NCBI GenBank assembly: GCA_016783555.1
Contig: JADHWH010000016.1
Span: 1 to 35,771, forward strand
DNA from: Candidatus Omnitrophota bacterium
Lineage (GTDB): Bacteria > Omnitrophota > Gorgyraeia > JABMRJ01
Reading direction: 5' to 3'
DNA length: 35,771 bases
Both the position numbers and the translations under genes were made by a program. Shown one piece after another: positions 2,601-32,588 of this stretch (its first letter is position 1; every line of letters starts with the position of its first letter). A model generated the notes under the pieces. That model made no database searches and was not told the origin of the DNA. It worked only from the letters and a program-made list of their open reading frames with translations.

Positions 2601-3221
2601 TTATACTAAGCGCTTCTTTCTCCTTAAAAATGCTCCAAATGCCAGCCCTGAGCCGAATAATAGTGTTGTCACCGGCTCTGGTATAACATCTCCTCCATTA
2701 GTGTGATCACCGGTCAATTTAAAATCATCCAGGTGGACATAGTCTTTTGAAGTGCCACAAGAATTATTATAGAGAGAAAATTTTACATCTACCGAGCTAT
2801 TGTTGGCCGATGAGGGCAACACCCAATTCTTAAACTCCCAGCTGCTGCCATAGTTGAGCGTCTCAAGAATATTCCAGGCGGGATCCCCTGTCTTTCTCCA
2901 TGCCATCGTAAAGATATCACCGCTGCTGTCCCCAAAACTCTCTGGCCTCCGATATACTGAAAAACCTATATTATTATAGCCTACGGTCGATATCGACCTC
3001 CATATTGACGCAACTATCTTTGGATTCGCCTTTAACGTAGCTGCCGGGTCGCCGCTTGGCGCAGGACTGCTTTCATTATTATTGGTAAAAACTTCGCCTT
3101 CCGTGCCCCAGCCGGATATCGCGTTGAACTCGTCAAGGAATATGGTAACCGACGCCTCGGCCTGTGTTGCATATAGGGCCGCGAATAGAATAATTGACGC
3201 ACACATAACCTTTCTTAACAC
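2601..3221 (-). CDS. PEP-CTERM sorting-domain protein, paralogue 1
   Basis: 206 residues from GTG 3221, with GGGAG 7 bases upstream. The signal peptide covers about residues 1-23 (cleavage near QAEA-S). The body is beta-rich and contains one domain of about 150 residues with no motif I can name. The C-terminus is a standard PEP-CTERM signal: IPEPVTT, a hydrophobic span (LLFGSGLAFGAFL) and RRKKR. Exosortase is expected to cut near PEP after secretion and transfer the protein to an unknown acceptor. It is a tandem paralogue of the gene at 3263-3886; 83 bases coding the sorting region (2647-2729) differ from the copy at 3309-3391 at a single base. It is probably co-transcribed with that gene from the sigma-54 promoter at 3974-3956. 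It ends 5 bases from the convergent plus-strand gene. Confidence 0.9.
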   Translation of the reverse strand: MLRKVMCASIILFAALYATQAEASVTIFLDEFNAISGWGTEGEVFTNNNESSPAPSGDPAATLKANPKIVASIWRSISTVGYNNIGFSVYRRPESFGDSSGDIFTMAWRKTGDPAWNILETLNYGSSWEFKNWVLPSSANNSSVDVKFSLYNNSCGTSKDYVHLDDFKLTGDHTNGGDVIPEPVTTLLFGSGLAFGAFLRRKKRLV

Positions 3222-3262: not shown

Positions 3263-3886
3263 CTAGACTATGGTTTTCTTTCTCCTCAGATATCCCGCGA
3301 ATATAAGACCTGAGCCGAATAATAGTGTTGTCACCGGCTCTGGTATAACATCTCCCCCATTAGTGTGATCACCGGTCAATTTAAAATCATCTATATAGGC
3401 ATAATCTTTTGAGGAGTGACAGCCATCGTCGCCATTATATAGAGAGAATTTTACATCTACCGAACCATTGCTGGCCGCTGACGGTAATACCCAATTCTTA
3501 TACTGCCAGGAACTATTATAGTCGAGCGTCTCAAGAATATTCCAGGCGGTCTCTCCTGTCTTTTTCCATGCTATAGTAAAAAGATCGTTGTTGTCATCCC
3601 CCAAGCTCTTCGTCTTTCGATACAGAGATAAACCTATATTATTATAGCCGGCTGTCGATATCGTCCTCCACATGGATGAAGTTGCTTCATTGTATGACTT
3701 CAATTTAGCCACATCGTCGCCGCTTGGGGCCGGGCTGCTTTGGTCATCAGCTGAAACATTGCCCTGTGTAGACCAGCCGGATATTGTGTTGAACTCGTCA
3801 AGGAATATGGTAACCGACGCCTCGGCCTGGGCTGCATATAAGCACGCAAACACAAAAATTGACACACAGATTAACTTTCTTAACAT
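3263..3886 (-). CDS. PEP-CTERM sorting-domain protein, paralogue 2
   Basis: 207 residues from ATG 3886 with a strong AGGAGGGG 8 bases upstream. The signal peptide is at about 1-23 (MLRKLICVSIFVFACLYAAQ). The extracellular domain shares its order of motifs with the downstream paralogue (SVTIFLDEFNTISGW near the N-terminus, TGETAWNILETLDY, DVKFSLYN, DDFKLTGDHTNGGD). The sorting tail is IPEPVTT, then LLFGSGLIFAGYL and RRKK. It is the first gene after the sigma-54 promoter, with a leader of about 60 bases. The function of the domain is unknown; by family it is an exported protein that is processed by exosortase and accompanies EPS. Confidence 0.9.
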   Translation of the reverse strand: MLRKLICVSIFVFACLYAAQAEASVTIFLDEFNTISGWSTQGNVSADDQSSPAPSGDDVAKLKSYNEATSSMWRTISTAGYNNIGLSLYRKTKSLGDDNNDLFTIAWKKTGETAWNILETLDYNSSWQYKNWVLPSAASNGSVDVKFSLYNGDDGCHSSKDYAYIDDFKLTGDHTNGGDVIPEPVTTLLFGSGLIFAGYLRRKKTIV

Positions 3887-3955: not shown

Positions 3956-3974
3956 AAAGCAAAATGTGTGCCAA
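3956..3974 (-). promoter_or_regulatory. Sigma-54 (-24/-12) promoter for the PEP-CTERM pair
   Basis: On the minus strand the sequence reads TTGGCACACATTTTGCTTT (3974-3956). This matches TGGCAC-N5-TTGC fully, with GG at 3972-3971 and GC at 3960-3959 at the required 11-base offset. Initiation would be near 3947, about 61 bases before the ATG at 3886. The gap 3887-4152 holds this promoter, an AT-rich leader and the upstream element at 4030-4138. Confidence 0.85.
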
Positions 3975-4029
3975 TATAGAAAATTTTGTATCTTTTTTCA
4001 AGAACTACGGCGCATAACACCTTTTTATT

Positions 4030-4138
4030 AAAGAGGTTACGGGAGGAAATTTTTACATTACCATGACATACCAGGAAAGAGTATGACAAGCAGTGATAGG
4101 TGATATTAAAAAATAGACATTTCTTGCGGGGTGTTGAA
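4030..4138. promoter_or_regulatory. Upstream element copy A (candidate activator site or dispersed repeat)
   Basis: This stretch aligns with 10625-10734. The strongest part is TATGACAAGCAGTGATAGG at 4082-4100 against TATGACAATCACTGTTAGG at 10677-10695 (16 of 19 identical), followed by TAGACATT, CTTG and GGGTG...TTGAAA blocks. The outer block AAG..GTTACG at the far end is also shared at the same distance. It ends about 55 bases upstream of the sigma-54 promoter at 3974, within the range used by enhancer-binding activators. Whether it binds the NtrC-type protein is inference. Confidence 0.5.
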
Positions 4139-4152
4139 ACATGTGGACATTT

Positions 4153-5169
4153 TTATTTTACAGGGGCGAGGGCAACGCTGGCAAAGTTGACAAGCTTCTT
4201 GATAAGCGCTATATCTCTTTTGGAAAATTCCTTCTCTTTCCTGACCATGTTTAAGTTTATAACGCCATAGACATCTTGATCATCGGCTTTATTAAAAGGG
4301 ACTATCATCGAGGCCTTGATGTATTTTCGCATCATCTTATTAGCAAGGCCGTTTTTGTTTCTGTCTTTGGGAAGTATTATAGGCTCGGCCATCGCCGCCG
4401 CCACGCCGGCTATCCCCTCCCCCATCTTAACGTTCGCGTTGTTTACTATTCTTTCATCCAATTTGGATGCCGCCTTTATGTGGAGCTCTCTGGTCGCCTT
4501 ATCTACCGTCATAACAGACCCTGAATCCGCCTCAAGCGCTATGATACACGTATTAAGAAGAGAACTCAAAATCTTTTCCTCGTAAACTTTGGAAAAAAGC
4601 GGGTCTATCTCCACCACATCGCGGCCGATCTCCCCAAGCCTCCTTTTGTGGTATTCCGTCTGCACCATCCGCGCGAAGACATGACGGAGCAGTTTTATAA
4701 CGGCGCGTATCCTGTTATATGAGAAGACGTTTATCTCTATAAGGGCGTCTATAAGCTCTTCGGGTTTTAATCCTGCCTTGATCGCTTCTTTTTCGTATAC
4801 AGACTCTTCTTTTCTCTTGTTCAGGATCACCGGCCCTATACATATATAGGCGGCTACCCTGCTGCCGAATATCCTTATAGGAAGCACAAATAGATCGAGC
4901 CCGAAGACACATTTAAAATTGGCTTCTTCTTTTACATCGAGTTTATTATGAAAATCCGGAAGACAATCTCCGCAATGCACGGATTTTTTGGAGGGATTGG
5001 GGCAGGTATTGGAACAGAGCCCTGAAGGGCCGCTTATCCGCGTAAGCTTTTTGCCGTCAGGGTCTATTGTGCAGAGCGTTACGCCTACAATCTCCGAAAA
5101 AGAATCTTGAATCCATTGCCACTCATCAAGATTAACTAGGTTATTTAAGTCGAGCCCATTTCGATACAT
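4153..5169 (-). CDS. PocR-type sensor domain plus GAF domain protein
   Basis: 338 residues, cytosolic, with no membrane span and no DNA-binding or catalytic output domain. Residues about 8-180 match the PocR ligand-binding domain: WQWIQDSFSEIVGVTLCTIDPDG at the front, the cysteine-rich block with Cys52, Cys56, Cys66 and Cys69, then FKCVFGLDLFVLPI and a helical end with HVFARMVQTEYHKR. Residues about 200-336 form a GAF domain (SGSVMTVD, GEGIAGVAA, SMIVPF, YGVINLNMVR). The gene lies 36 bases downstream of the NtrC-type regulator and is probably co-transcribed. A likely role is to sense a small molecule or redox/metal state and modulate the activator by contact (inference). The lack of an output domain is unusual for PocR-GAF proteins, which are often fused to kinases or AraC domains. 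Confidence 0.8.
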   Translation of the reverse strand: MYRNGLDLNNLVNLDEWQWIQDSFSEIVGVTLCTIDPDGKKLTRISGPSGLCSNTCPNPSKKSVHCGDCLPDFHNKLDVKEEANFKCVFGLDLFVLPIRIFGSRVAAYICIGPVILNKRKEESVYEKEAIKAGLKPEELIDALIEINVFSYNRIRAVIKLLRHVFARMVQTEYHKRRLGEIGRDVVEIDPLFSKVYEEKILSSLLNTCIIALEADSGSVMTVDKATRELHIKAASKLDERIVNNANVKMGEGIAGVAAAMAEPIILPKDRNKNGLANKMMRKYIKASMIVPFNKADDQDVYGVINLNMVRKEKEFSKRDIALIKKLVNFASVALAPVK

Positions 5170-5205: not shown

Positions 5206-6576
5206 CTAACCCTGCGAGATTAGATTGTACTTACGCAATTTATTATAAAGTGTCGTCCTGTTTATGCCCAGTTTCTTAGCGGCCTTCTTCTTATTCCAAC
5301 CAACCTCCTTCAAGATTCTAAGTATATGGCCCTTCTCCGGCTCTCTTAAGATATCCTTCAATAAATTTAAAGCGCTTGCGGAGACATTCGCCATGGTCTT
5401 ACTTATGAGTATCTCGGGAAGATCGTCTTTATTTATCACGCCGTCTGTATCCAATATGACGGCGCGTTCTATAATATTCTCAAGCTCCCTTATATTGCCG
5501 GGCCAATGGTAGTTCTTAAGGACTTCGATGACGCCTCCGTCCATGCCCTTTAACTTCTTATGGTTCTCTTTAGAGTATAGATTTACAAAATGCTCCAAAA
5601 GAGACGGCAGGTCTTCTTTTCTCTCTCTTAAGGGCGGCAGGACAATCGATATAACATTGAGCCTGTAGTAAAGGTCTTCCCTGAACTTTTTTTCGCTAAC
5701 GAGCTTCTCTAAGTCCTGGTTCGTCGCCGCTACAATGCGCGCGTCTACCTTTACGGTTCTATGATCCCCCACCCTCTCAAACTCTTTCTGCTGGATTATC
5801 CTTAAAAGCTTCACCTGCAGATCAGGCGTCAGCGAGTCGATATCATCAAGCAGTATAGTGCCTCCGTGCGCCAGCTCGAACCGCCCCTTCCTGTCGGCTA
5901 TGGCGCCCGTAAAAGCGCCTTTGGTATGGCCGAATAGTTCGCTCTCCACAATATCCCGCGGAAGCGCCCCGCAGGAGACCTCCACAAAAGGCTTGTTGCA
6001 CCTCTTCTTATCCGCCTTATGTATGGAATGGGCCAGGAGCCTCTTTCCCGTTCCGCTCTCTCCCCGTATCAATATGGTCGTCTTCGCGTTTGCTATGCGT
6101 TCAACGACCGAATAAATCTCGTTTAACTTGTCGCTCTTTCCTATAATACCGTGGAATGAATCATCGCTCTTTTTAGAAAGCTTCTTAAAAGGACCGCCAT
6201 GCGTCTTCTTCCGCGGCAGGTTCAGAAGCGCCCTCTCTATAACGGAGATGATCTTTTCGTCCTCAACGGGCCTTACAAGATAATCAAAGGCCCCGAGCTT
6301 TATGGACCTTACCGCAAAATCAAGGTTCCCGTAAGAAGTGAGTATAATAACCTCGCCCGAGTCCAGCTTATCTTTTAAGTCCTTTACAAGCTCAACATCA
6401 TCCTCTTTGTTTAAATCTGTAAGGACAATCTGGTAGGGTTTTTCAGATATGCATTCCAAGGCTTCTTCTGTCTCGCTGGCTATATCTACCTTGTAACCCG
6501 CGCGGCAGAGTATTTCGTAAAGGGATTTCTGTACAAGCAGCTCAAAGTTTACCAGTAGAATCTGTGAACCATCCAT
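5206..6576 (-). CDS. NtrC-family sigma-54 activator with a degenerate receiver
   Basis: 456 residues from ATG 6576. An open frame reaches back to TTG 6600, but AAGGAG (6592-6587) lies inside that extension 10 bases before the ATG, so 6576 is the better start. Order of domains: receiver (1-120), AAA+ sigma-54 interaction domain (about 143-370) and Fis-type HTH (about 415-452). Visible motifs are Walker A GESGTGK (172-178), GAFTGA (220-225) which contacts sigma-54, and Walker B ILLDDID (241-247). The receiver keeps Asp54 and Thr80, but the Mg-binding acidic pair is Asn10-Phe11 and the conserved Lys is Arg102. The family remodels the sigma-54 holoenzyme by ATP hydrolysis. Exosortase loci often carry the PrsR response regulator; this protein may fill that role. 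Candidate targets are the promoters at 3974 and 10567. It has its own promoter and an attenuator-like leader. Confidence 0.93.
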   Translation of the reverse strand: MDGSQILLVNFELLVQKSLYEILCRAGYKVDIASETEEALECISEKPYQIVLTDLNKEDDVELVKDLKDKLDSGEVIILTSYGNLDFAVRSIKLGAFDYLVRPVEDEKIISVIERALLNLPRKKTHGGPFKKLSKKSDDSFHGIIGKSDKLNEIYSVVERIANAKTTILIRGESGTGKRLLAHSIHKADKKRCNKPFVEVSCGALPRDIVESELFGHTKGAFTGAIADRKGRFELAHGGTILLDDIDSLTPDLQVKLLRIIQQKEFERVGDHRTVKVDARIVAATNQDLEKLVSEKKFREDLYYRLNVISIVLPPLRERKEDLPSLLEHFVNLYSKENHKKLKGMDGGVIEVLKNYHWPGNIRELENIIERAVILDTDGVINKDDLPEILISKTMANVSASALNLLKDILREPEKGHILRILKEVGWNKKKAAKKLGINRTTLYNKLRKYNLISQG

Positions 6577-6598
6577 GCTATTGACTCTCCTTAAAGCC

Positions 6599-6640
6599 AA
6601 AAAAACGCTCTATCTTGCTGTCTTTTAACAGGATAGAACG
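6599..6640 (-). terminator. Intrinsic terminator in the leader of the sigma-54 activator gene
   Basis: On the minus strand, CGTTCTATC (6640-6632) pairs with GATAGAGCG (6614-6606), with one G-T pair. An inner CTGT/ACAG stem (6631-6628 with 6621-6618) closes a short loop. Seven Ts follow at once (6605-6599). It lies between the promoter at 6706-6678 and the activator start at 6576, so it would also end transcripts of the upstream gene group. Confidence 0.75.
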
Positions 6641-6711: not shown

Positions 6712-7047
6712 TTATTCAATCTCTTCCTGTGTAATCCTGGCAAATTCTGTCTCCATCTTTTTGGCGTATCTGTTCAGCTGGCATAGGAGCGAGGAGAGTT
6801 TTCTTATGCCTGACTTCGATTCCAGCAAAAACTGCCTGTGCTGAGAATCCTCCTCAACATGCTGCAGCGACAAATTTATAAAGCGGTTTACGGCGTCCAG
6901 CGGGTCATAAAGCCTGTTTAAGATAGTCATAGACAACCTGCCCATAGAGGCAAACCGGCTATACTTACCTGCCGACCCCCTGGGCCGGCTATTCTTAAAA
7001 CCCTTCTTTCTCTTTTTGTTATTGCGTGGTCTGCTGTTTGGCTTCAT
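6712..7047 (-). CDS. Free-standing HisKA-like (DHp) protein lacking the phosphoacceptor histidine
   Basis: 111 residues, soluble. The first 30 residues are very basic (RPRNNKKRKKG) and could bind nucleic acid or phosphates. Residues 32-98 read like the dimerisation helices of a histidine kinase: ASMGRLSMTILNRLYDPLD corresponds to the usual SxGxxxxxIAHEINNPLD. The histidine position is Asn44 and the next acidic residue is Arg45. NRFINLSL and LLESKSGIRKLSSLL match the remainder of the hairpin. There is no ATP-binding domain here or nearby. By position it may be a phosphorylation-independent partner of the NtrC-type protein just downstream (inference). It overlaps the TPR gene by 29 bases, so the pair is probably translationally linked. 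An internal ATG at codon 35 is a less likely start because it would remove the beginning of the domain. Confidence 0.65.
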   Translation of the reverse strand: MKPNSRPRNNKKRKKGFKNSRPRGSAGKYSRFASMGRLSMTILNRLYDPLDAVNRFINLSLQHVEEDSQHRQFLLESKSGIRKLSSLLCQLNRYAKKMETEFARITQEEIE

Positions 7048-7891
7048 TTGCTCTCTTTATCTTGTTGTGTAATAACTTCTTAAATTCGGCGTCCTCGGTA
7101 TTTTTTATTAAATACTCATATATCTTTACGGCCTTGTCTGCGTCCTTCAGCTTCTTTACAAATATCAGCTCTATAAGGGGTATCTGCTGCGCCTGTACCA
7201 GCGGCGTAGGATAGTCGTATATATTGGCCTCCACGATACTGCCGGCCTCTTCATACTTTTCTGTTTCTATGTATGAGCGTATAAGGTAGGTTGAGGAACT
7301 ATATCCGAGCATTGTGCCTCTGTTCTCTTCGCACAATCTCTTATAAAGGGCTATCGCGTCTTCGTATTTCTTTAGGGTCTCCGCCATATTGCCGTAACCC
7401 TTGCACCGCTGGGCTATATAGAGCGCTGACTGAAGGCCTATGGGTGTATGGTGATATTCATCCCGCAGGATCTCATACTCTTTTACCGCGTTATGCCATT
7501 CTCCCTTCTTCTCATATGCCATGCCCTTTAAAAAGTAGGCCTTGCTCAAAAGCGATACCCCGCTAGCCTCATGCTCCGACAAAAAAGCACCAATAATCGC
7601 TACGGCATCCTCGTATCTTTTTTCCGTGATGTAGAATTCCGCGAGCGCCATATATGAATGTCTTGCGAGCTCCGAATCCGGGTGCCCCCGCATTATCTTC
7701 TGCAAATCGCGCTCCACGGAGACGGACATAGCAGGAGGGGTGGCATCAGGGTTTTTCATTATCTCGCTATGTGTACTCTTTGCCCGGTAAAATAACTTCT
7801 CCGCCATATAATCCTTATCCGTAAAGAGGAAGAAGAGAACGAGGAAAGATATCAATATAGCCGATGCGAGATAAAGCGCAAATCGTTTCAT
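7019..7891 (-). CDS. Membrane-anchored TPR protein, copy 1
   Basis: 290 residues. One N-terminal membrane anchor (about 5-24) is followed by a short linker and helical repeats from about 60 on. TPR-like units are visible at SELARHSYMALAEFYITEKRYEDAVAI, SKAYFLKGMAYEKKGEWHNAVKEY and MLGYSSSTYLIRSYIETEKYEEAGSI. The repeats are probably periplasmic and serve as a protein-protein scaffold. The gene starts 2 bases after the stop of the membrane protein at 7894-8784. The same membrane-then-TPR order recurs at 12526-10809 with clear sequence similarity, so the two genes appear to be a functional module. No specific function can be assigned. Confidence 0.8.
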   Translation of the reverse strand: MKRFALYLASAILISFLVLFFLFTDKDYMAEKLFYRAKSTHSEIMKNPDATPPAMSVSVERDLQKIMRGHPDSELARHSYMALAEFYITEKRYEDAVAIIGAFLSEHEASGVSLLSKAYFLKGMAYEKKGEWHNAVKEYEILRDEYHHTPIGLQSALYIAQRCKGYGNMAETLKKYEDAIALYKRLCEENRGTMLGYSSSTYLIRSYIETEKYEEAGSIVEANIYDYPTPLVQAQQIPLIELIFVKKLKDADKAVKIYEYLIKNTEDAEFKKLLHNKIKRANEAKQQTTQ

Positions 7892-7893
7892 CC

Positions 7894-8784
7894 TTAACTA
7901 TCCTTCTTTGTTGTCTTTAATAAAAACTCTGTCGCGCATATAACCACAAAACAATCTACAAACATAGATACTATTATGCCGGCGGCGGTTATTATGAGTA
8001 TGACCTCCGGGAATACCAGCTTGGCCAGCCTGGCCGAATTGGCCTTCATGATAAAGACAGGCAGGTATACCAGATACGGCACAATTATAAGCGGAAATAT
8101 ATAGGAAAAATTGCGCAGGCCCATGGAAACGCTCTTAACAATCGCCTTCCACAACGTACCTCCCCGAATAACTATAATAGGAATAACAAGCAGTAAGAAG
8201 ACATGCAAAACCACAATCGTCAAAAATAGCGCCATCGGCATAAAGAAAGTCGTGGCGGCAGGCACTGTCCCGGGAACCGCCTCCGGCAGGCGGCTCGCAA
8301 GCAGCTTATAAAATAGAGAGAATACAAATGCATTGCCTCTCTTCGCCAGATAGACAGCCAGAGTGGCTATAACGCCGTATATAAGAAACGTGGTATACCG
8401 CTTGCCGTTATCTCTTATTATATCCCCTGTATCGAAAGATGAGTCTTCTTTAGCGCGCTTAATGATCTCTACACAGACCGCCGTAAGAAAGATGCCCGCT
8501 GTGATATAAATCAGCGTGCTCGCGTAAGCGAAGAGCTTCGGTAGCAGGATGAGCTCCGCCGGATAGTGAGTAAATCCGGCCCCGAAGAACTTCCTGATGA
8601 GGGGATCAGCGATAAATGAAAGCGGCCTCCTTGAAGAAAAGTAGAGCAATTCAAGGAATAGCCCCTGTATAAGGGCGAGGACCAAAAAAGGCATTAAGAC
8701 AATAGGTCTTGCGGCAAGAAGCTCAAGCGCCGCAGACCAGTTTGACTTAAGGCCGAATCTGGGTTCTTTATTGATAGATATCAT
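7894..8784 (-). CDS. Polytopic inner-membrane protein, copy 1
   Basis: 296 residues with about six hydrophobic spans (roughly 28-50, 88-112, 131-150, 182-208, 228-252 and 260-285). The most conserved part against the paralogue at 11663-12526 is DPLIRKFFGAGFTHYPAELI, followed by a span, where the other copy has NPLIKKFFGEVFLHYPANLF. No catalytic motif is seen. It resembles the general class of six-span envelope proteins of unknown function. It is the first gene of a short operon (membrane protein, TPR, HisKA-like) behind the promoter at 8885-8857. The ATG at 8784 has an AT-rich upstream region with no obvious Shine-Dalgarno sequence. Confidence 0.8.
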   Translation of the reverse strand: MISINKEPRFGLKSNWSAALELLAARPIVLMPFLVLALIQGLFLELLYFSSRRPLSFIADPLIRKFFGAGFTHYPAELILLPKLFAYASTLIYITAGIFLTAVCVEIIKRAKEDSSFDTGDIIRDNGKRYTTFLIYGVIATLAVYLAKRGNAFVFSLFYKLLASRLPEAVPGTVPAATTFFMPMALFLTIVVLHVFLLLVIPIIVIRGGTLWKAIVKSVSMGLRNFSYIFPLIIVPYLVYLPVFIMKANSARLAKLVFPEVILIITAAGIIVSMFVDCFVVICATEFLLKTTKKDS

Positions 8785-8997: not shown

Positions 8998-9660
8998 CTA
9001 AACCTTAAACTTCTTGACCATCCTGCCGGCAAAACCGATCAGGCCTATGCCCAAAAGCAGCATGCTGGATGGTTCCGGGATAGTCGTGTTCCATCCGCTA
9101 TCCGGCACCAAATCCTCTGCGGCAATCGCTCCGTTATCCATCTTCGTCCATGTCTGAAAGCCTCCCACAGGAAAGCTTGAGAACATGCTGGCCGGGATAA
9201 ACCACTCTATCACAGACCCCATTGCCCATTGCGGAGTACCCGCTACAGGGTTTCCTGCCCCATCGAGGACAGTAAGAGTATTTACTCCACCCACCTTCTT
9301 GAAGAATATCTCCCTGTCATTACCATCGATTATACCGTTCATGTTGATATCGATTAATGTCTGGTAAAACGGAGTGGTGGATCCCGCCTCAGGATAATTA
9401 CCGAGAGTCGGGGTACCAAAGAGGTCGATACCTATGTAAAGACCGTCATTGGCGTCACCGTTATTCTCAAGTATCATACCGAGCTTAAAGATATCATAGT
9501 TGTCGTTAAGGCCGGCTTCGTTAGGATCGGTCGCCGATATTATAAGGCTAGTCCACTCTCCGGTATCCGCGCCGTCAATATTGGCCGTCGTGATAGCGAA
9601 CGCGTTTCCAGCTAACAATATGGCTGACACAACCATCGCCATTAAATACAATTTCTTCAA
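8998..9660 (-). CDS. PEP-CTERM sorting-domain protein with a calcium-loop-like motif
   Basis: 220 residues, started at TTG 9660. A GTG at 9669 is in frame, but it overlaps the AAGGAGG Shine-Dalgarno sequence itself; that sequence sits 8 bases before the TTG, so TTG is the likely start. The signal peptide is about 20 residues (AMVVSAILLAGNAFA-ITTA). The body is a secreted beta-rich domain with DINMNGIIDGNDREIF near the middle, which looks like an EF-hand or dockerin-type calcium loop. The tail is IPEPSSM, a hydrophobic span (LLLGIGLIGFAG) and RMVKKFKV. It lies 40 bases downstream of the sugar transferase and is probably expressed with it from the sigma-54 promoter at 10567-10551. It is unrelated in its body to the PEP-CTERM pair at 2601-3886. 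Confidence 0.88.
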   Translation of the reverse strand: MKKLYLMAMVVSAILLAGNAFAITTANIDGADTGEWTSLIISATDPNEAGLNDNYDIFKLGMILENNGDANDGLYIGIDLFGTPTLGNYPEAGSTTPFYQTLIDINMNGIIDGNDREIFFKKVGGVNTLTVLDGAGNPVAGTPQWAMGSVIEWFIPASMFSSFPVGGFQTWTKMDNGAIAAEDLVPDSGWNTTIPEPSSMLLLGIGLIGFAGRMVKKFKV

Positions 9661-9700
9661 ATTATTCACCTCCTTCCATTATATATTTTATTCATCAAAA

Positions 9701-10522
9701 CTATCTTGCGCCCTTGCCCATAGCCGCTACGACTATGGTCCTTAAGAGTATGCGCAAGTCTACCATAAGGCACATCTTCCTTATATATAAGAGATCGTAT
9801 TTGATCTTCTTTTTGACATCCTCGATCGTCTCGTCATACTTATGCCATACCTGGGCCAGGCCGGTAATGCCCGGCTTTACATCAAGCCTTTTACTATAAT
9901 CTTTGATATCCTCGCTGAGCCTTTCCGCGAAAACAGGCCTCTCGGGCCTCGGGCCCACAATACTCATCTCTCCTTTTAGCACGTTGATTAACTGAGGGAG
10001 CTCGTCAATATGGAGCCTGCGTATGATCTTCCCGAATTTAATCAGCCGCGGGTCGTTCTCTTTTGCCCAGACAGGGCCGGTCTCTCTCTCCGCGTCCAGC
10101 TGCATGGTCCTGAGCTTATACATAACAAAGACGTTTCCGCCCCATCCTACTCTCTCCTGCTTAAAAAGCGCCGGTCCCGGAGAGACTATCTTTATAAAAA
10201 CCATGGCAAGGAGAATAACGGGAAACGATATTATAAGGCCGAACGTGCTTACCGCAATGTCAAAAATCCTCTTAAATTCCTGAAATCTCCTCCTCGCGAA
10301 TCTGACTATCCATCCGCACAGGCCCGTAGAGACTATGGCCATGCTGCTTGCCTCTGGGGCATCGATATGGTGCCCTGAATCGCCCTGGGCGTAACAGAAG
10401 CCTATCAGGAATAATACCATCAATACCGTAAAGACAAAGAGCCCCAAAAAGTATGTCGCGCTCTTTATCTCTACTTTTCTTAAACTGTCCTTAATTGTCT
10501 TTTTTATTAATCTCTTCTGCAT
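9701..10522 (-). CDS. Undecaprenyl-phosphate sugar-1-phosphate transferase with an internal PEP-CTERM-like segment
   Basis: 273 residues. The C-terminal 190 residues are a bacterial sugar transferase domain: KRIFDI (84-89) with its membrane helix, YKLRTM (135-140), NDPRLIKFGKIIRRLHIDELPQ starting at 156, GEMSIVGPRPE (184-194) and KPGITGLAQV (216-225). The family moves a sugar-1-phosphate from a UDP-sugar to undecaprenyl phosphate, the first step of repeat-unit synthesis at the inner membrane. The front is unusual: a signal-like span at 22-43 ending CYAQ, then APEASSM (55-61), a span (61-75) and RRRF, which has the layout of a PEP-CTERM tail and shares PE-SSM with the neighbouring PEP-CTERM protein. 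Most short-form sugar transferases have a single front helix. The gene follows a sigma-54 promoter with a short leader of about 19 bases. Confidence 0.92.
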   Translation of the reverse strand: MQKRLIKKTIKDSLRKVEIKSATYFLGLFVFTVLMVLFLIGFCYAQGDSGHHIDAPEASSMAIVSTGLCGWIVRFARRRFQEFKRIFDIAVSTFGLIISFPVILLAMVFIKIVSPGPALFKQERVGWGGNVFVMYKLRTMQLDAERETGPVWAKENDPRLIKFGKIIRRLHIDELPQLINVLKGEMSIVGPRPERPVFAERLSEDIKDYSKRLDVKPGITGLAQVWHKYDETIEDVKKKIKYDLLYIRKMCLMVDLRILLRTIVVAAMGKGAR

Positions 10523-10550: not shown

Positions 10551-10567
10551 AAGCAGAAGTTATGCCA
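10551..10567 (-). promoter_or_regulatory. Sigma-54 (-24/-12) promoter for the sugar transferase gene
   Basis: On the minus strand TGGCATAACTTCTGCTT (10567-10551) carries GG at 10566-10565 and GC at 10554-10553 with the correct 11-base offset. It matches TGGCA fully and CTGC against TTGC. Initiation would be near 10541. The gap 10523-10808 contains this promoter, upstream element copy B and the 21-bp hairpin. Confidence 0.72.
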
Positions 10568-10624
10568 GAAGGCGGGATAACTGGAAAAATTTAAAAATTT
10601 CGTTATTTTTATCTTATTATAAAT

Positions 10625-10734
10625 AAAGGAGTTACGAAAAGGAAGATGACTTAAGGCGTGATTGTCTATGTCTCACTATGACAATCACTGTTAGGCGATT
10701 TTTATTATTTAGACATTACTTGAAGGGTGTGTTG
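10625..10734. promoter_or_regulatory. Upstream element copy B (candidate activator site or dispersed repeat)
   Basis: This is the second copy of the element at 4030-4138, about 58 bases upstream of the sigma-54 promoter at 10567. Copy B also contains a perfect 9-base inverted repeat, GTGATTGTC and GACAATCAC, separated by 13 bases (about 10658-10688), a plausible protein-binding dyad. The repeat is not preserved in copy A outside its right half. Confidence 0.5.
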
Positions 10735-10790
10735 AAAAATAGGGACAGGTCCCTCAATTGCAATCTATCGAGGGACCTGTCCCTATTTTT
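10735..10790. terminator. Perfect 21-bp hairpin with A/T-run ends, bidirectional terminator or REP-like element
   Basis: Positions 10735-10755 and 10770-10790 are exact reverse complements around a 14-base loop. Each arm carries a further palindrome (AGGGACAGGTCCCT on the left). Five As start it and five Ts end it, so it can terminate both strands, including the long minus-strand operon that ends at 10809. A third half-copy, GTCCCTATTTT, follows at about 10793-10803, which points to a repeat-family origin. Confidence 0.75.
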
Positions 10791-10808
10791 TTGTCCCTAT
10801 TTTCATTA

Positions 10809-11657
10809 TCACATGTTGTTTATTCTGCTTATAAGGAAATTCTTAAGGGCCTTGTTTTCGGTCTTTGCGATAATATTTTTAAAGATCCTCACCGTCTCAT
10901 GCGGTCTATTGAGCTTCTCGGTAAATACAAGCTCTATACGCGATATCTGCTGCGGCTCAAAATGCGTGGGGTAATTAAGGATCACATTCTTTATAATGCG
11001 CCCTGCGTTTTCGTACTCTTCAAGGAGGATATATGTCATCACAAGGAGATCGGAGGCCATATATCCAATCCAGGTATTCTCGTTTTTTTCTCTTTTATCT
11101 TTGTAAAACCCTACGGCCTTTCTGCATAGTTCCTGCGCCTCCGCTTCGTTTCCGGCATTTTTGTTATACTGCGCGATATAGAGCGGCACTTGAAGCCCGA
11201 GGTATGTATCGCCATAATTATACTGAAGGTATTCCAGCTCCCTAAATGCCTTATCCCATCTCTCTTTTAACTCGTAGCTCTTTGCCTTGATAAAACGCGC
11301 CTTGCTGACCAGGCCCCTATCTTTTTTGTATCTTTTTACAATCTTATCCGAAACCGCTGCCGCGTCGCTGTATCTTTCATTCTGCATGTACATGGCCGCG
11401 AGGCTTATGTGCGCCTGCTTGGCGGACTCGCCGCCGGGGAAGCGCCTTATTATCTCCTTTAATTTACTCTCGACCTGCCTCTGCGTGCCCAGCACGGTCT
11501 CGGTAGGGTTAAGAGGGACGCCTTGATTGACTGTAGTCGCGTCGAAGAGCATCCTCTCGGCCGTAAACTCACTTCCGATATTAAGAAACGAGAGCATCGC
11601 GAATATCGAAAAGAGCGTGACAATACTTAAGAATATTATCTTTCTTGTAGAGTACAT
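10809..11657 (-). CDS. Membrane-anchored TPR protein, copy 2
   Basis: 282 residues from ATG 11657. The frame extends three codons to GTG 11666, but AGAGGGG lies 8 bases before the ATG. One N-terminal anchor (about residues 5-24) and helical repeats follow, including SAKQAHISLAAMYMQNERYSDAAAVSDKIV, SKARFIKAKSYELKERWDKAFREL and a C-terminal YPTHFEPQQISRIELVF segment. The copy at 7019-7891 has the same layout, with YPTPLVQAQQIPLIELIF at the matching place. It is the last gene of the long operon, and the hairpin at 10735-10790 follows. Its role is probably a periplasmic scaffold for the membrane protein encoded just upstream (inference). Confidence 0.8.
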   Translation of the reverse strand: MYSTRKIIFLSIVTLFSIFAMLSFLNIGSEFTAERMLFDATTVNQGVPLNPTETVLGTQRQVESKLKEIIRRFPGGESAKQAHISLAAMYMQNERYSDAAAVSDKIVKRYKKDRGLVSKARFIKAKSYELKERWDKAFRELEYLQYNYGDTYLGLQVPLYIAQYNKNAGNEAEAQELCRKAVGFYKDKREKNENTWIGYMASDLLVMTYILLEEYENAGRIIKNVILNYPTHFEPQQISRIELVFTEKLNRPHETVRIFKNIIAKTENKALKNFLISRINNM

Positions 11658-11662
11658 CTTAA

Positions 11663-12526
11663 TCACCCCTCTTTAGTTAGTCTCTCTTTGTCCAATAAAA
11701 ACCGCGTAATACAAATAGTGGTATAGCACTCAACGAGCTTTATGATGACTATGCCGCCGAGAGTGACGAAAAACACCATCTCTACAAACGTCGCCTCCAT
11801 CAGCTCTTTGTAAAATATCTTTACCAAAAGTACCGGCGAGCATATTAGATACGGCACCAAGAGCAGCGTGAATATCGCAAAGAAGTTTAACAATCCTTTA
11901 AAAGCGCTCTCCCCAAGGGCCTTTATAAACGGCTTCTTCTTGATCACTATTATAGGTATCGTCAATATCAAAAATGCGTAAAAAGCTATGCGCAGTACAA
12001 GAAGCGACAGCGCTGAAATAAAAGGCATCATATCCCACGCTATCTGGGGAAGATGCCTTGAAAAATACCTTAGGACCTTACCAAACCCAAAGGCATGAAG
12101 ATTCCTCACCAGGACACCTACCAGCACTATCAGTATAGCGTAAACGAGACAGGGCCCGTACCTGCGAAGCGCCTCTTCGAGCATACTCCTCGTCTTTAAC
12201 GGCGTTTGAGCGTCTACCTTGCCGACAAGATCAATAGTGACGGCGGATAGAAAGACGCCTATCGCGGCAAATATAAGAAGGTTCGCGTAGTAGTAAAGCG
12301 TGGGCATGATAAAGAGATTCGCGGGGTAATGTAGAAATACCTCGCCGAAAAACTTCTTTATAAGCGGATTGGTGATGTGCATAAAAGGCGTACCCGTCGA
12401 AAAATATATAAATATCAGCGCTAGTATCTCAAGGAAGCCCCAGATGATAAACGGGACCGTAACAAAAGATTTTTTTGTCATCAAGTCGAATGAATCTATC
12501 CAGTTTCTTACGATATTGTATCTCAT
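11663..12526 (-). CDS. Polytopic inner-membrane protein, copy 2
   Basis: 287 residues with about six membrane spans, paralogous to the 7894-8784 protein. The shared signature is NPLIKKFFGEVFLHYPANLF near residue 55, preceded by a span and followed by a span (LLIFAAIGVFLSAVTIDLV). A basic loop (VIKKKPFIKALGESAFKGLLNF) resembles VIRGGTLWKAIVKSVSMGLRNF in the other copy. No enzyme motif is visible. It lies between epsI (3 bases away) and the TPR gene, so it belongs to the exosortase end of the operon. A role in export or anchoring of PEP-CTERM proteins or EPS is possible but unproven. Confidence 0.8.
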   Translation of the reverse strand: MRYNIVRNWIDSFDLMTKKSFVTVPFIIWGFLEILALIFIYFSTGTPFMHITNPLIKKFFGEVFLHYPANLFIMPTLYYYANLLIFAAIGVFLSAVTIDLVGKVDAQTPLKTRSMLEEALRRYGPCLVYAILIVLVGVLVRNLHAFGFGKVLRYFSRHLPQIAWDMMPFISALSLLVLRIAFYAFLILTIPIIVIKKKPFIKALGESAFKGLLNFFAIFTLLLVPYLICSPVLLVKIFYKELMEATFVEMVFFVTLGGIVIIKLVECYTTICITRFLLDKERLTKEG

Positions 12527-12529
12527 GCG

Positions 12530-13174
12530 TTAACCCTTTCTCATATTTTCCATTATCACAATAACCTCTTCCATAAAAGACTTGAGAGTCTCGAGCGTCT
12601 CTTCCTCATTATCCGAAACCCGCGTCGATACCTTGATTGTGGCGCCGCCCTTATTCTTCGCGAAAAGCTGGTTTATGGTAAAGAGCGCCTGCTGGAGATA
12701 GTAATTAAAGGTATAGGTCCTTCCGGTCTTGTAGCAGTAAAGCGAGATATCCCTCGCGCCTTTTTTCTCAAGATATAATTTATTGCATTTAAAGACGCCG
12801 TAAGGCGACTTTATATCCTCGTATATCTTCTCCACCATATTTACACCGCTTCCGATAAGGCAGACTTCCGGGGGATGAAAGACGGATCTGTTTGTCTCGG
12901 AGTATATTATAAAAAGATATATCTTCTCATCCCTGTCGTTTTTGTATTCTCTTACGATTAAATTCCGGGTCTCAAGGATGCGGTATTCGTTTTCCGTGAT
13001 ATCCAGGTCCTCGCCTTCCCAGTCTCTTATCGTGTGCGGGAAATCTTTTATCTCTACCGAATCCACGGCCTCTCTCTGCCTGGAATAGAGCCCAAACGAA
13101 AAGACGCTTGTGATAGACAAAGCGGCGACAACTGCGATGTATCCTACCGTAGACTTATTTACCGATCTCACCAT
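12530..13174 (-). CDS. epsI: EpsI-family exosortase-associated protein
   Basis: 214 residues. One N-terminal membrane anchor (about 11-30) precedes a periplasmic domain of the EpsI type. The family hallmark is seen as FHPPEVCLIGSGV, with His100, Pro101-Pro102 and Cys105, preceded by a conserved entry (FPHTIRDWEGEDL) and followed by SLYCYKTGRTYTFNYYLQQ. EpsI proteins are encoded next to exosortases or fused to their C-termini in EPS loci; their exact reaction is not established. The start ATG 13174 overlaps the end of the exosortase gene by 20 bases, consistent with coupled translation. The order exosortase then EpsI is the classical one. Confidence 0.9.
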   Translation of the reverse strand: MVRSVNKSTVGYIAVVAALSITSVFSFGLYSRQREAVDSVEIKDFPHTIRDWEGEDLDITENEYRILETRNLIVREYKNDRDEKIYLFIIYSETNRSVFHPPEVCLIGSGVNMVEKIYEDIKSPYGVFKCNKLYLEKKGARDISLYCYKTGRTYTFNYYLQQALFTINQLFAKNKGGATIKVSTRVSDNEEETLETLKSFMEEVIVIMENMRKG

Positions 13175-14003
13175 CTTTTATTCCCTTCTCAAGAACCCTG
13201 CTTACCGCGTAAAGGCCCGCAAAGGCGATGCCGAACATCATAAACCCGGAGAAATCATGGAAAAACCCCATAGCGATCTTCTCTCCGTAAAGGTCATTTA
13301 CGGTAGCGAGCATCGTGACCCTTACAATGTTCGTCAGAATCGCTATCGGCACCGATGACATAAAAAGAAGTGTCTTTCTTAAGTAAGAGACCTTTACGGC
13401 AAATGAAAAGAGCGCGCCAAGGGTCAAAAGCGATATAAGCGAACGCAGGCCGCTGCACGGCGCCTCAATGGCTACATGCGAACTGGGCATTATTATGAGA
13501 TTGCCGTCCCTGGCCGAAGGAAAACCTATCCTGTTAAGGACAAACGTCGCCGCCTCGGCCACTATCAGCTTTAGTTTGACGGTGATGTTGCTCACAAGCA
13601 CGAGAGGAAGCGGTATCATAGCCAAGAGAAATAAAAGCGGAAAGACCAGATTGCGCACCATATCTTTTCCGAAGAAGAAGAGCAGCAGTCCGTATAATAC
13701 GAATATAAATGAAAACCCGGATAAAAAGTAGAGTTTTATGGCCGCGCAGACTATATGTATAAAAAGTCCTGCCGCGATAACCGCTAAACCCCTCATATCA
13801 GTCGAAACCCTGGAAGCCTTTATAGCCCCCCTTCTCTGCCACGCGACGAATATCGACACAAACGGTATAAGAAACCCGTGCCCGTAATAAGACTCCGCCG
13901 CGAGCCACCTGTCTACCATCCACTTAAAAGTGGGGATGTAGGCTACGATTAACAACGCGAAACATATCAGAAACTTAAGTATCAGACCCTTGCTTTTTTC
14001 CAT
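13155..14003 (-). CDS. Exosortase (EpsH/Xrt family)
   Basis: 282 residues with about eight membrane spans. The family signatures are complete: YYGHGFLIPFVS near the front (39-50), the active-site block EAPCSGLRSLI with Cys183, NIVRVT with Arg228 and FFHDFSG with His249, which together give the Cys-Arg-His set proposed for transpeptidation. The enzyme is expected to cut PEP-CTERM proteins at the periplasmic face and join them to a still unknown acceptor. Its likely substrates in this window are at 2601, 3263, 8998 and 32325. The subtype cannot be fixed by eye. It sits between the membrane GT2 (overlap 22 bases) and epsI (overlap 20 bases). Confidence 0.95.
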   Translation of the reverse strand: MEKSKGLILKFLICFALLIVAYIPTFKWMVDRWLAAESYYGHGFLIPFVSIFVAWQRRGAIKASRVSTDMRGLAVIAAGLFIHIVCAAIKLYFLSGFSFIFVLYGLLLFFFGKDMVRNLVFPLLFLLAMIPLPLVLVSNITVKLKLIVAEAATFVLNRIGFPSARDGNLIIMPSSHVAIEAPCSGLRSLISLLTLGALFSFAVKVSYLRKTLLFMSSVPIAILTNIVRVTMLATVNDLYGEKIAMGFFHDFSGFMMFGIAFAGLYAVSRVLEKGIKDGEIGK

Positions 14004-32324: not shown

Positions 32325-32588
32325 TTATTTCTTCTTCCTTCGCCTTAGTAGCGCGTATGCGGCCAGGCCGCCTCCAAGGAGGGCTACGGTCGTGGGTTCA
32401 GGCGTGTGTGAAGTCTTTATCGGGGGGTCGTCTCCGCCGCCACCGGCGCCTCCGCCACCACCGCCACCGCCGTTACCGCCTCCGCCGCCTCCACCGAAAA
32501 GGCCTGCCATTCCGCCTGAGCCGCTACAGCCAGTCAGTATGAATGTCACGGCTACACAGCATGCGAAGATTAAAAGCTTCTTAATCAT
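32325..32588 (-). CDS. Small Gly-rich lipoprotein with a C-terminal PEP-CTERM signal
   Basis: 87 residues. The N-terminus is a lipoprotein signal peptide with lipobox LTGC and Cys21 as the lipidated residue. Residues 31-52 are almost all glycine. The C-terminus is TPEPTT (62-67), a hydrophobic span VALLGGGLAAYAL (68-80) and RRRKKK, a full PEP-CTERM signal. The protein thus has signals for both lipidation and exosortase processing with only a flexible linker between them. Its start overlaps the kinase gene stop by 4 bases (ATGA), so it is a true operon member between the kinase and Wzx. It may be a minimal exosortase substrate or a carrier on which EPS is anchored (inference). Confidence 0.85.
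   Translation of the reverse strand: MIKKLLIFACCVAVTFILTGCSGSGGMAGLFGGGGGGGNGGGGGGGGAGGGGDDPPIKTSHTPEPTTVALLGGGLAAYALLRRRKKK

Follow-up and report, generated by a model that had tools for sequence, protein, structure and literature searches.

The window analysed here is the whole of a 35,771-nucleotide stretch (contig JADHWH010000016.1) of a Candidatus Omnitrophota genome. A first-pass annotation had pointed to two similar non-coding elements in it, at 4030-4138 and 10625-10734, hereafter E1 and E2. E1 lies between a PocR-GAF gene and a pair of PEP-CTERM genes, and E2 between a TPR gene and a sugar transferase gene. The genes of the region are all on the minus strand:

2601..3221, minus strand, PEP-CTERM protein, second gene behind E1 (TIGR02595 above cut-off)
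3263..3886, minus strand, PEP-CTERM protein, first gene behind E1 (TIGR02595 above cut-off)
4153..5169, minus strand, PocR and GAF sensor protein (Pfam PF10114 8.2e-26, GAF_2 7e-11)
5206..6600, minus strand, NtrC-type sigma-54 activator with a pseudo-receiver, an intact AAA+ domain and a Fis-type HTH (Pfam PF00158 9.3e-67, PF02954 4.3e-14, PF00072 1.2e-14)
6712..7047, minus strand, 111-aa remnant of a histidine kinase DHp domain, without catalytic His and without ATPase domain
8998..9669, minus strand, PEP-CTERM protein behind E2, after the sugar transferase (TIGR02595 above cut-off)
9701..10522, minus strand, sugar transferase, first gene behind E2, with an internal PEP-CTERM-like segment
10809-11666, minus strand, TPR gene on the far side of E2 from the sugar transferase
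12530-13174, minus strand, EpsI, before the E2 region
13155-14003, minus strand, exosortase, before the E2 region

As the annotation proposed, the PEP-CTERM pair follows E1, and the sugar transferase with a further PEP-CTERM gene follows E2, the operons being judged from gene spacing. Four PEP-CTERM matches were found in the genome, all inside the window. The suggestion to look upstream of other PEP-CTERM genes was borne out in part: on the same judgement of operons, three of the four stand behind E1 or E2, and the fourth (32325-32588, minus strand) has no module. This fourth gene overlaps the gene before it. The PEP-CTERM-like segment of the sugar transferase, PEASSMAIVSTGLCGWIVRFARRR, follows the N-terminal membrane segment and precedes the catalytic domain. 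All 10 aligned relatives keep its Pro-Glu, and 8 of them were weakly matched by TIGR02595. A membrane-protein/TPR gene pair occurs twice in the window (7019-8784 and 10809-12526, minus strand), and mostly once in the relatives' loci examined.

The likeness claimed for E1 and E2 is real. Their local alignment scored 44, as compared to a mean of 15.5 and a maximum of 30 in 2000 shuffles. Pieces of the relatives' loci (n=5290) reached a maximum of 31, none attaining 44, and the window itself, in pieces not overlapping E1 or E2, reached 25 at most. The proposed core (TATGACAAGCAGTGATAGG / TATGACAATCACTGTTAGG) is indeed identical at 16 of 19 positions, and at 19 of 23 when lengthened through GAT. 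Equal spacing of the outer and core blocks had also been proposed; it is exact from GTTACG to the core (46 bp in both) and nearly equal from the core to TAGACA (32 versus 33 bp). A genome-wide search for the core returned E1 and E2 only: with up to three mismatches allowed, two sites were found in 1.77 Mb, both exact, and the control gave one. BLAST of the whole genome revealed no further copy of E2. A dispersed repeat at sites unrelated to sigma-54 promoters or PEP-CTERM genes, an objection that the annotation had raised against itself, is rejected, since the genome has just two copies, both sigma-54-linked. Finally, a profile trained without the window recovered E1 (E=9.3e-12) and E2 (E=1.3e-11), the next hit in the window being not below 0.39.

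The conserved module is longer than first drawn. It covers ~200 bp, about 3958-4154 in E1 and 10552-10751 in E2, and comprises, in the sense of transcription, outer blocks, D1 half-sites, a D2 dyad and the -24/-12 site. D1 corresponds to the core mentioned above and is made of 10-bp-phased TGTCATAG half-sites that build a degenerate 21-bp dyad. D2 is a second dyad, TAACTC-N13-GAGTTA. Of the "defined enhancer" first proposed, the shared sigma-54- and exosortase-linked cis-element stands; its core is just one of two dyads, and D2 (4015-4039 and 10610-10634), present in nearly all promoters examined, lies mostly outside the bounds first given. Two models with rough E-values were used: R1, which describes the distal element from sequence alone, and R2, which describes the dyad and sigma-54 site. 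The sites are as follows:

3958..3973, minus strand, sigma-54 -24/-12 promoter of E1, TGGCACACATTTTGCT (within an R2 match, E=2.2e-13)
4015..4039, minus strand, E1 proximal dyad D2, TAACCTCTTTAATAAAAAGGTGTTA (p<0.005 versus shuffles), 66 bp upstream of -24
4055..4154, minus strand, E1 distal element with TGTCC / TCAACAC / AATGTCTA / TATCACC blocks and phased TGTCAT half-sites (R1, E=1.3e-19)
4061-4068, minus strand, additional half-site of E1, TGTCATGG
4068..4088, minus strand, D1 position of E1, TGTCATACTCTTTCCTGGTAT, a weak dyad (11 matches, descriptive p=0.245 alone)
10552..10567, minus strand, sigma-54 -24/-12 promoter of E2, TGGCATAACTTCTGCT (R2 match, E=3.5e-11)
10610..10634, minus strand, E2 proximal dyad D2, TAACTCCTTTATTTATAATAAGATA (p<0.005), 67 bp upstream of -24
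10652..10751, minus strand, E2 distal element, with blocks as in E1 (R1, E=1.2e-21)
10663..10683, minus strand, D1 dyad of E2, TGTCATAG-TGAGA-CATAGACA (descriptive p=0.005)

Both -24/-12 sites are TGGCAC-N5-TTGCW-like, their GG and GC doublets keeping the fixed spacing, and they score 19.4 and 18.2 of 19.9. They are found 57 and 58 bp from the bounds first given to the elements, in agreement with the ~55 bases claimed. The generic sigma-54 consensus was not enriched genome-wide (13 matches versus 12 in the control), which counts against the main explanation, namely that the module is a sigma-54 enhancer-promoter.

A long inverted repeat around GGGACAGGTCCC, at 10741-10797, adjoins E2 and is possibly the terminator of the preceding operon. 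Among the fetched loci, the palindrome was found in copies of the same place and in one unrelated Spirochaetes contig.

Gene order is widely kept in other families of the class: exosortase, EpsI, the gap, sugar transferase, (PEP-CTERM), membrane protein, TPR, kinase or its remnant, activator, PocR-GAF. In the sole same-family genome among the relatives searched, no match to the exosortase was obtained. Every sugar-transferase gap examined contains a strong sigma-54 site, with scores of 18.2-19.9 of 19.9 for the upstream regions of the window and of 16 relatives' loci, and likewise for the PEP-CTERM pair. The aligned relatives have the distal blocks TGTCCATA, TCAACAC, AATGTCTAAA and TATCGCC, followed by TGTCATAG half-sites every 10 bp and, proximally, by TAACTC-N13-GAGTTA, an A/T-rich spacer and TGGCACG-N4-TTGCT. 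The distance from the phased array to -24 is 84-86 bp in E1, E2 and five relatives. R1 and R2 were then searched in 384 genomes of the class with strict filters. R1 matched 11 of the 384 at a rough E<1e-10, each match adjoining an R2 match. Five of these 11 genomes were outside the training set (G212, G249, G113, G194, G242), and in all four that were readable (G212, G249, G194, G242) the sugar transferase comes next. Weaker R1 matches, G144:C11 and G242:C55, lie upstream of PEP-CTERM genes. R2 gave two strong matches in the window's own genome, E1 and E2, the next being at 1e-3. Overall, the module is conserved in distant relatives before the same sugar-transferase gene and some PEP-CTERM genes, and E1 and E2 are real, conserved control regions.

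Two other origins of the likeness were considered. E1 and E2 might result from a recent local duplication or be a functionless mobile repeat, as the doubling of the nearby TPR/membrane gene pair could suggest. However, the element is kept at the same gene in other families of the class, the genes before E1 and before E2 differ and there are two genome copies only; we hold this origin to be very improbable. Being conserved, non-coding and 3′ to the genes before it, the sequence might also be an RNA element, riboswitch or leader. Yet E1 and E2 are upstream of the promoter, and strict 10-bp phasing with a fixed distance to -24 suits DNA. Rfam contained no match for the element, and RNAalifold predicted no pair in a seven-sequence alignment. 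With no Rfam match and no consensus structure, the RNA element was rejected and seems scarcely credible.

The NtrC-type gene said to be encoded between the two elements is present at 5206-6600, with AAA+, Fis-type HTH and a receiver-like N-terminal domain. It is the sole clear sigma-54 activator found in the genome (a MAG that is 93% complete): Sigma54_activat (PF00158) scores it at 227 bits and the other four matches at 31 bits or less. At 93% completeness the MAG could have missed a second activator, which counts against the main explanation. The presence of an rpoN-like sequence (G000:C19:29487-30750; L005:33-1344, minus strand) speaks for that explanation and its state against it: a frameshift close to a homopolymer run breaks this sequence into two overlapping frames, so that either the assembly is wrong here or the sigma-54 gene is damaged.

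Judging by its residues, the activator seems to have lost the usual phosphate switch. In its receiver the acidic pair is replaced (VNFE) and Lys is changed to Arg, Asp being kept, and the domain classifies as a pseudo-receiver. All distal-element genomes with a readable activator have a receiver without catalytic residues: the normal acidic pair is missing in G015, G249, G020, G057 and G212, Thr and Lys in G194 and most of the phosphorylation site in G144. In contrast, canonical receivers were found in ten relatives without the element, which also have, at the gene position of the remnant, a full-length kinase with HE-x-NNPLD (GAF-HisKA-HATPase read in some). Six element-bearing relatives have a kinase piece of 100-119 aa without ATPase domain, His being absent where the motif was readable; no kinase piece was found nearby in G144. 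The pseudo-receiver/element clade is one branch of the activator tree (support 100/99). Because this clade has a single origin, the association of element and pseudo-receiver amounts to one event. The link of the full element with a pseudo-receiver and a cut kinase, which is not statistically independent, is suggestive.

The distribution of the two dyads was compared among promoters. Nineteen promoters served to define D2, 14 of them reaching p<=0.05 singly; it was then found in 9 of 9 promoters outside this set (p<=0.01), starting 49-69 bp before -24. The D1 consensus, TGTCMTRG-N5-CYAKGACA, was written after the promoters were seen, and its p-values are descriptive. D1 starts 114-118 bp before -24 in most D1-bearing sugar-transferase promoters. 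It was undetected at the sugar-transferase promoter of several relatives, where D2 is retained, sometimes twice. The second D2 is 192-196 bp before -24 in the D1-less loci L030, L031 and L072 (p<=0.02) and farther off in L038, also D1-less; in some D1-less promoters the extra D2 is about 130 bp upstream of the first. This fits what would be expected for the tandem site of an activator. Phasing is strict: in 20 promoters, 26 GTCH pairs are spaced by exactly 10 bp and 12 by 20 bp, where 0.1 would be expected at each distance. The D1 dyad alone is unspecific, with five window matches at up to three mismatches, of which the four outside E2 rank at or above E2 by mismatch count. Specificity belongs to the whole module only, not to the D1 dyad. 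Since the activator HTH is nearly invariant across the genomes compared, with or without D1, and since D2 is near-universal and doubled in some promoters where D1 is missing, D2 was assigned to the activator. On this comparison D2 is the putative activator site, an assignment that we believe with some reserve. D1 would more likely be the site of a second factor or an extension of the activator site.

A third sigma-54 site, TGGCACAAATATTGCT at G000:C19:30946, was found on another contig. It is divergent from rpoN and precedes an HTH/export gene:

G000:C19:31068-32069 (L005:1623-2627), plus strand, protein in which a MerR-type HTH is fused to a polysaccharide-export/SLBB domain, with a likely transmembrane segment (MerR_1 6.6e-11, Poly_export 3.4e-18)

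The HTH is N-terminal and the polysaccharide-export domain C-terminal. At this promoter D1 is just downstream and D2 is absent. Therefore, if D2 is the sole activator site, the export promoter has none, which counts against the main explanation. Among ten export loci, drawn from the window's genome and the relatives nearest to it, seven have the start of D1 at +36 from -24 and the others at +26, +46 or +56, with a descriptive p<=0.025 in 8 of 10; these nearest relatives, like the window's genome, have D1 without D2 here. In more distant relatives the export promoter often has D2 too, and D1-like repeats follow the promoter or, in some families, precede it by 136-160 bp; in these relatives the HTH is a separate small reading frame. 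Relatives of the export protein were found in 91 of 384 genomes. Our literature search found no precedent on point for the HTH/export fusion or for exosortase systems in Omnitrophota. Given this third sigma-54 site with D1 on another contig, the "local regulon" first proposed holds for E1 and E2 with their nearby activator and is probably not purely local.

D1 could itself bind the activator through its TGTCATAG core, D2 being an architectural or other site. D1 is indeed present at all three sigma-54 promoters of the genome, including the D2-less export promoter (the dyad is weak in E1), and it is upstream or downstream depending on the promoter, in 10-bp steps when downstream (+26, +36, +46, +56 from -24), as an enhancer would be. 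However, relatives with a near-identical activator HTH have D2, some of them doubled, without a detectable sugar-transferase D1. We consider this assignment possible, though it has less than an even chance. Alternatively, D1 may be the operator of the MerR-type HTH of the export protein, fused or adjacent, giving self-feedback together with co-control of the PEP-CTERM and sugar-transferase promoters. That D1 follows the HTH/export sigma-54 site in the genome and most close relatives (8/10, descriptive p<=0.025) agrees with this, as do the MerR_1 domain of the export protein (6.6e-11) and its kin in 91 of 384 genomes. Against it, D1 in a 5′ region could suit any repressor, and we infer the pairing of this HTH with the motif. 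This operator is a tentative proposal, likewise with less than an even chance; it concerns D1 alone and is compatible with the main explanation.

From the computed anatomy, conservation, geometry, uniqueness, single clear activator and gene context, we infer the pairing of protein and site, the direction of control and the operons as follows. It is highly probable, from sequence comparison, that a composite sigma-54 enhancer-promoter is present twice, as E1 and E2, and is driven by the 5206-6600 protein, most likely via D2, with D1 as a distinct second site. The protein would bind upstream of the promoter, most likely at TAACTC-N13-GAGTTA, and touch the sigma-54 RNA polymerase at -24/-12; this contact would activate transcription of the PEP-CTERM genes and of the sugar transferase. 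The phased TGTCATAG half-sites of D1, ~115 bp upstream of -24, would either extend the activator's binding region in the clade or be an operator for another regulator, the best candidate for which would be the MerR-type HTH of the export protein, whose own sigma-54 promoter carries D1. Most likely, E1 and E2 let one regulator switch on genes for surface-anchored proteins and a sugar coat. A more speculative extension, which we consider unlikely, is that the clade's activator has left two-component control, with its pseudo-receiver, a DHp-only partner and a phased enhancer read together with an export-fused DNA-binding domain, and that the state of export would feed into transcription of exosortase substrates. 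The conservation of the module suffices for a reporter assay.

Regulation of exosortase/PEP-CTERM systems has so far been known chiefly via the 2006 proteobacterial PrsK/PrsR prediction. In that study, 99 of 167 proteobacterial PEP-CTERM genes were preceded by motif 1 (17 nt, ending TTTACA) and a sigma-54 motif (motif 2), on average 63 bp apart, and were linked to PrsK, PrsR and PrsT; many PEP-CTERM genes had other kinds of upstream region (Haft et al. 2006; PMC1569441). The Omnitrophota module works like this PEP-CTERM box/PrsR system and is not a member of it. The first-pass suggestion of an equivalent to the PEP-CTERM box therefore holds for function and not for membership. Similarly to the box, the module is a conserved non-coding site before the -24/-12 of PEP-CTERM genes, at similar distances, and precedes most PEP-CTERM genes of the genome (3/4, with operons taken from spacing). 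As in the PrsR system, an NtrC-like activator is encoded near exosortase and EPS genes. In contrast to the box, the sites are TAACTC-N13-GAGTTA and TGTCMTRG-N5-CYAKGACA, and E2 is followed first by a sugar transferase gene instead of a plain PEP-CTERM gene. TTTACA, the only part of published motif 1 compared, is absent at the proximal dyad of E1 and E2 and present there in a few relatives (L026, L040). PrsR (TIGR02915) was rejected for the activator, which scores 366.8 bits versus a cut-off of 502.6; orthologues of two relatives score 424.5 and 419.2. PrsK (TIGR02916) was rejected as well, kinases of two relatives scoring 97.7 and 70.6 versus 300 and the window copy being the His-less remnant. 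The locus genes scanned included neither PrsK nor PrsT. The module would be a second, separately defined regulon, having its own sites and apparently one activator.

In Aquincola tertiaricarbonis, primer extension together with an rpoN mutant demonstrated that pepA needs sigma-54, and an enhancer was predicted upstream (PMC9850573). This PEP-CTERM gene has a sigma-54 dependence that is experimental there and predicted here, which we count in support of the main explanation; the organism is another one, and the experiments there addressed sigma-54 rather than the activator or the enhancer. DctD in its dephosphorylated form works with dephospho-IIAGlc and needs an extended upstream activator sequence (PMC11077940). 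By analogy, a phosphorylation-free NtrC-family activator with a partner and an extended site parallels the pseudo-receiver clade with its long element. DctD differs in being an ordinary phosphorylatable activator, and its partner is IIAGlc, not a kinase remnant. Response regulators with pseudo-receivers are common and their mode of control is unknown (PMC12632262). The set of a full kinase and receiver without the long element versus a remnant and pseudo-receiver with it makes such control testable. The Omnitrophota activator shares with these regulators a receiver-like domain without catalytic residues; it differs from them in that the kinase at the same position is also cut, to a short DHp piece, both being intact in relatives.
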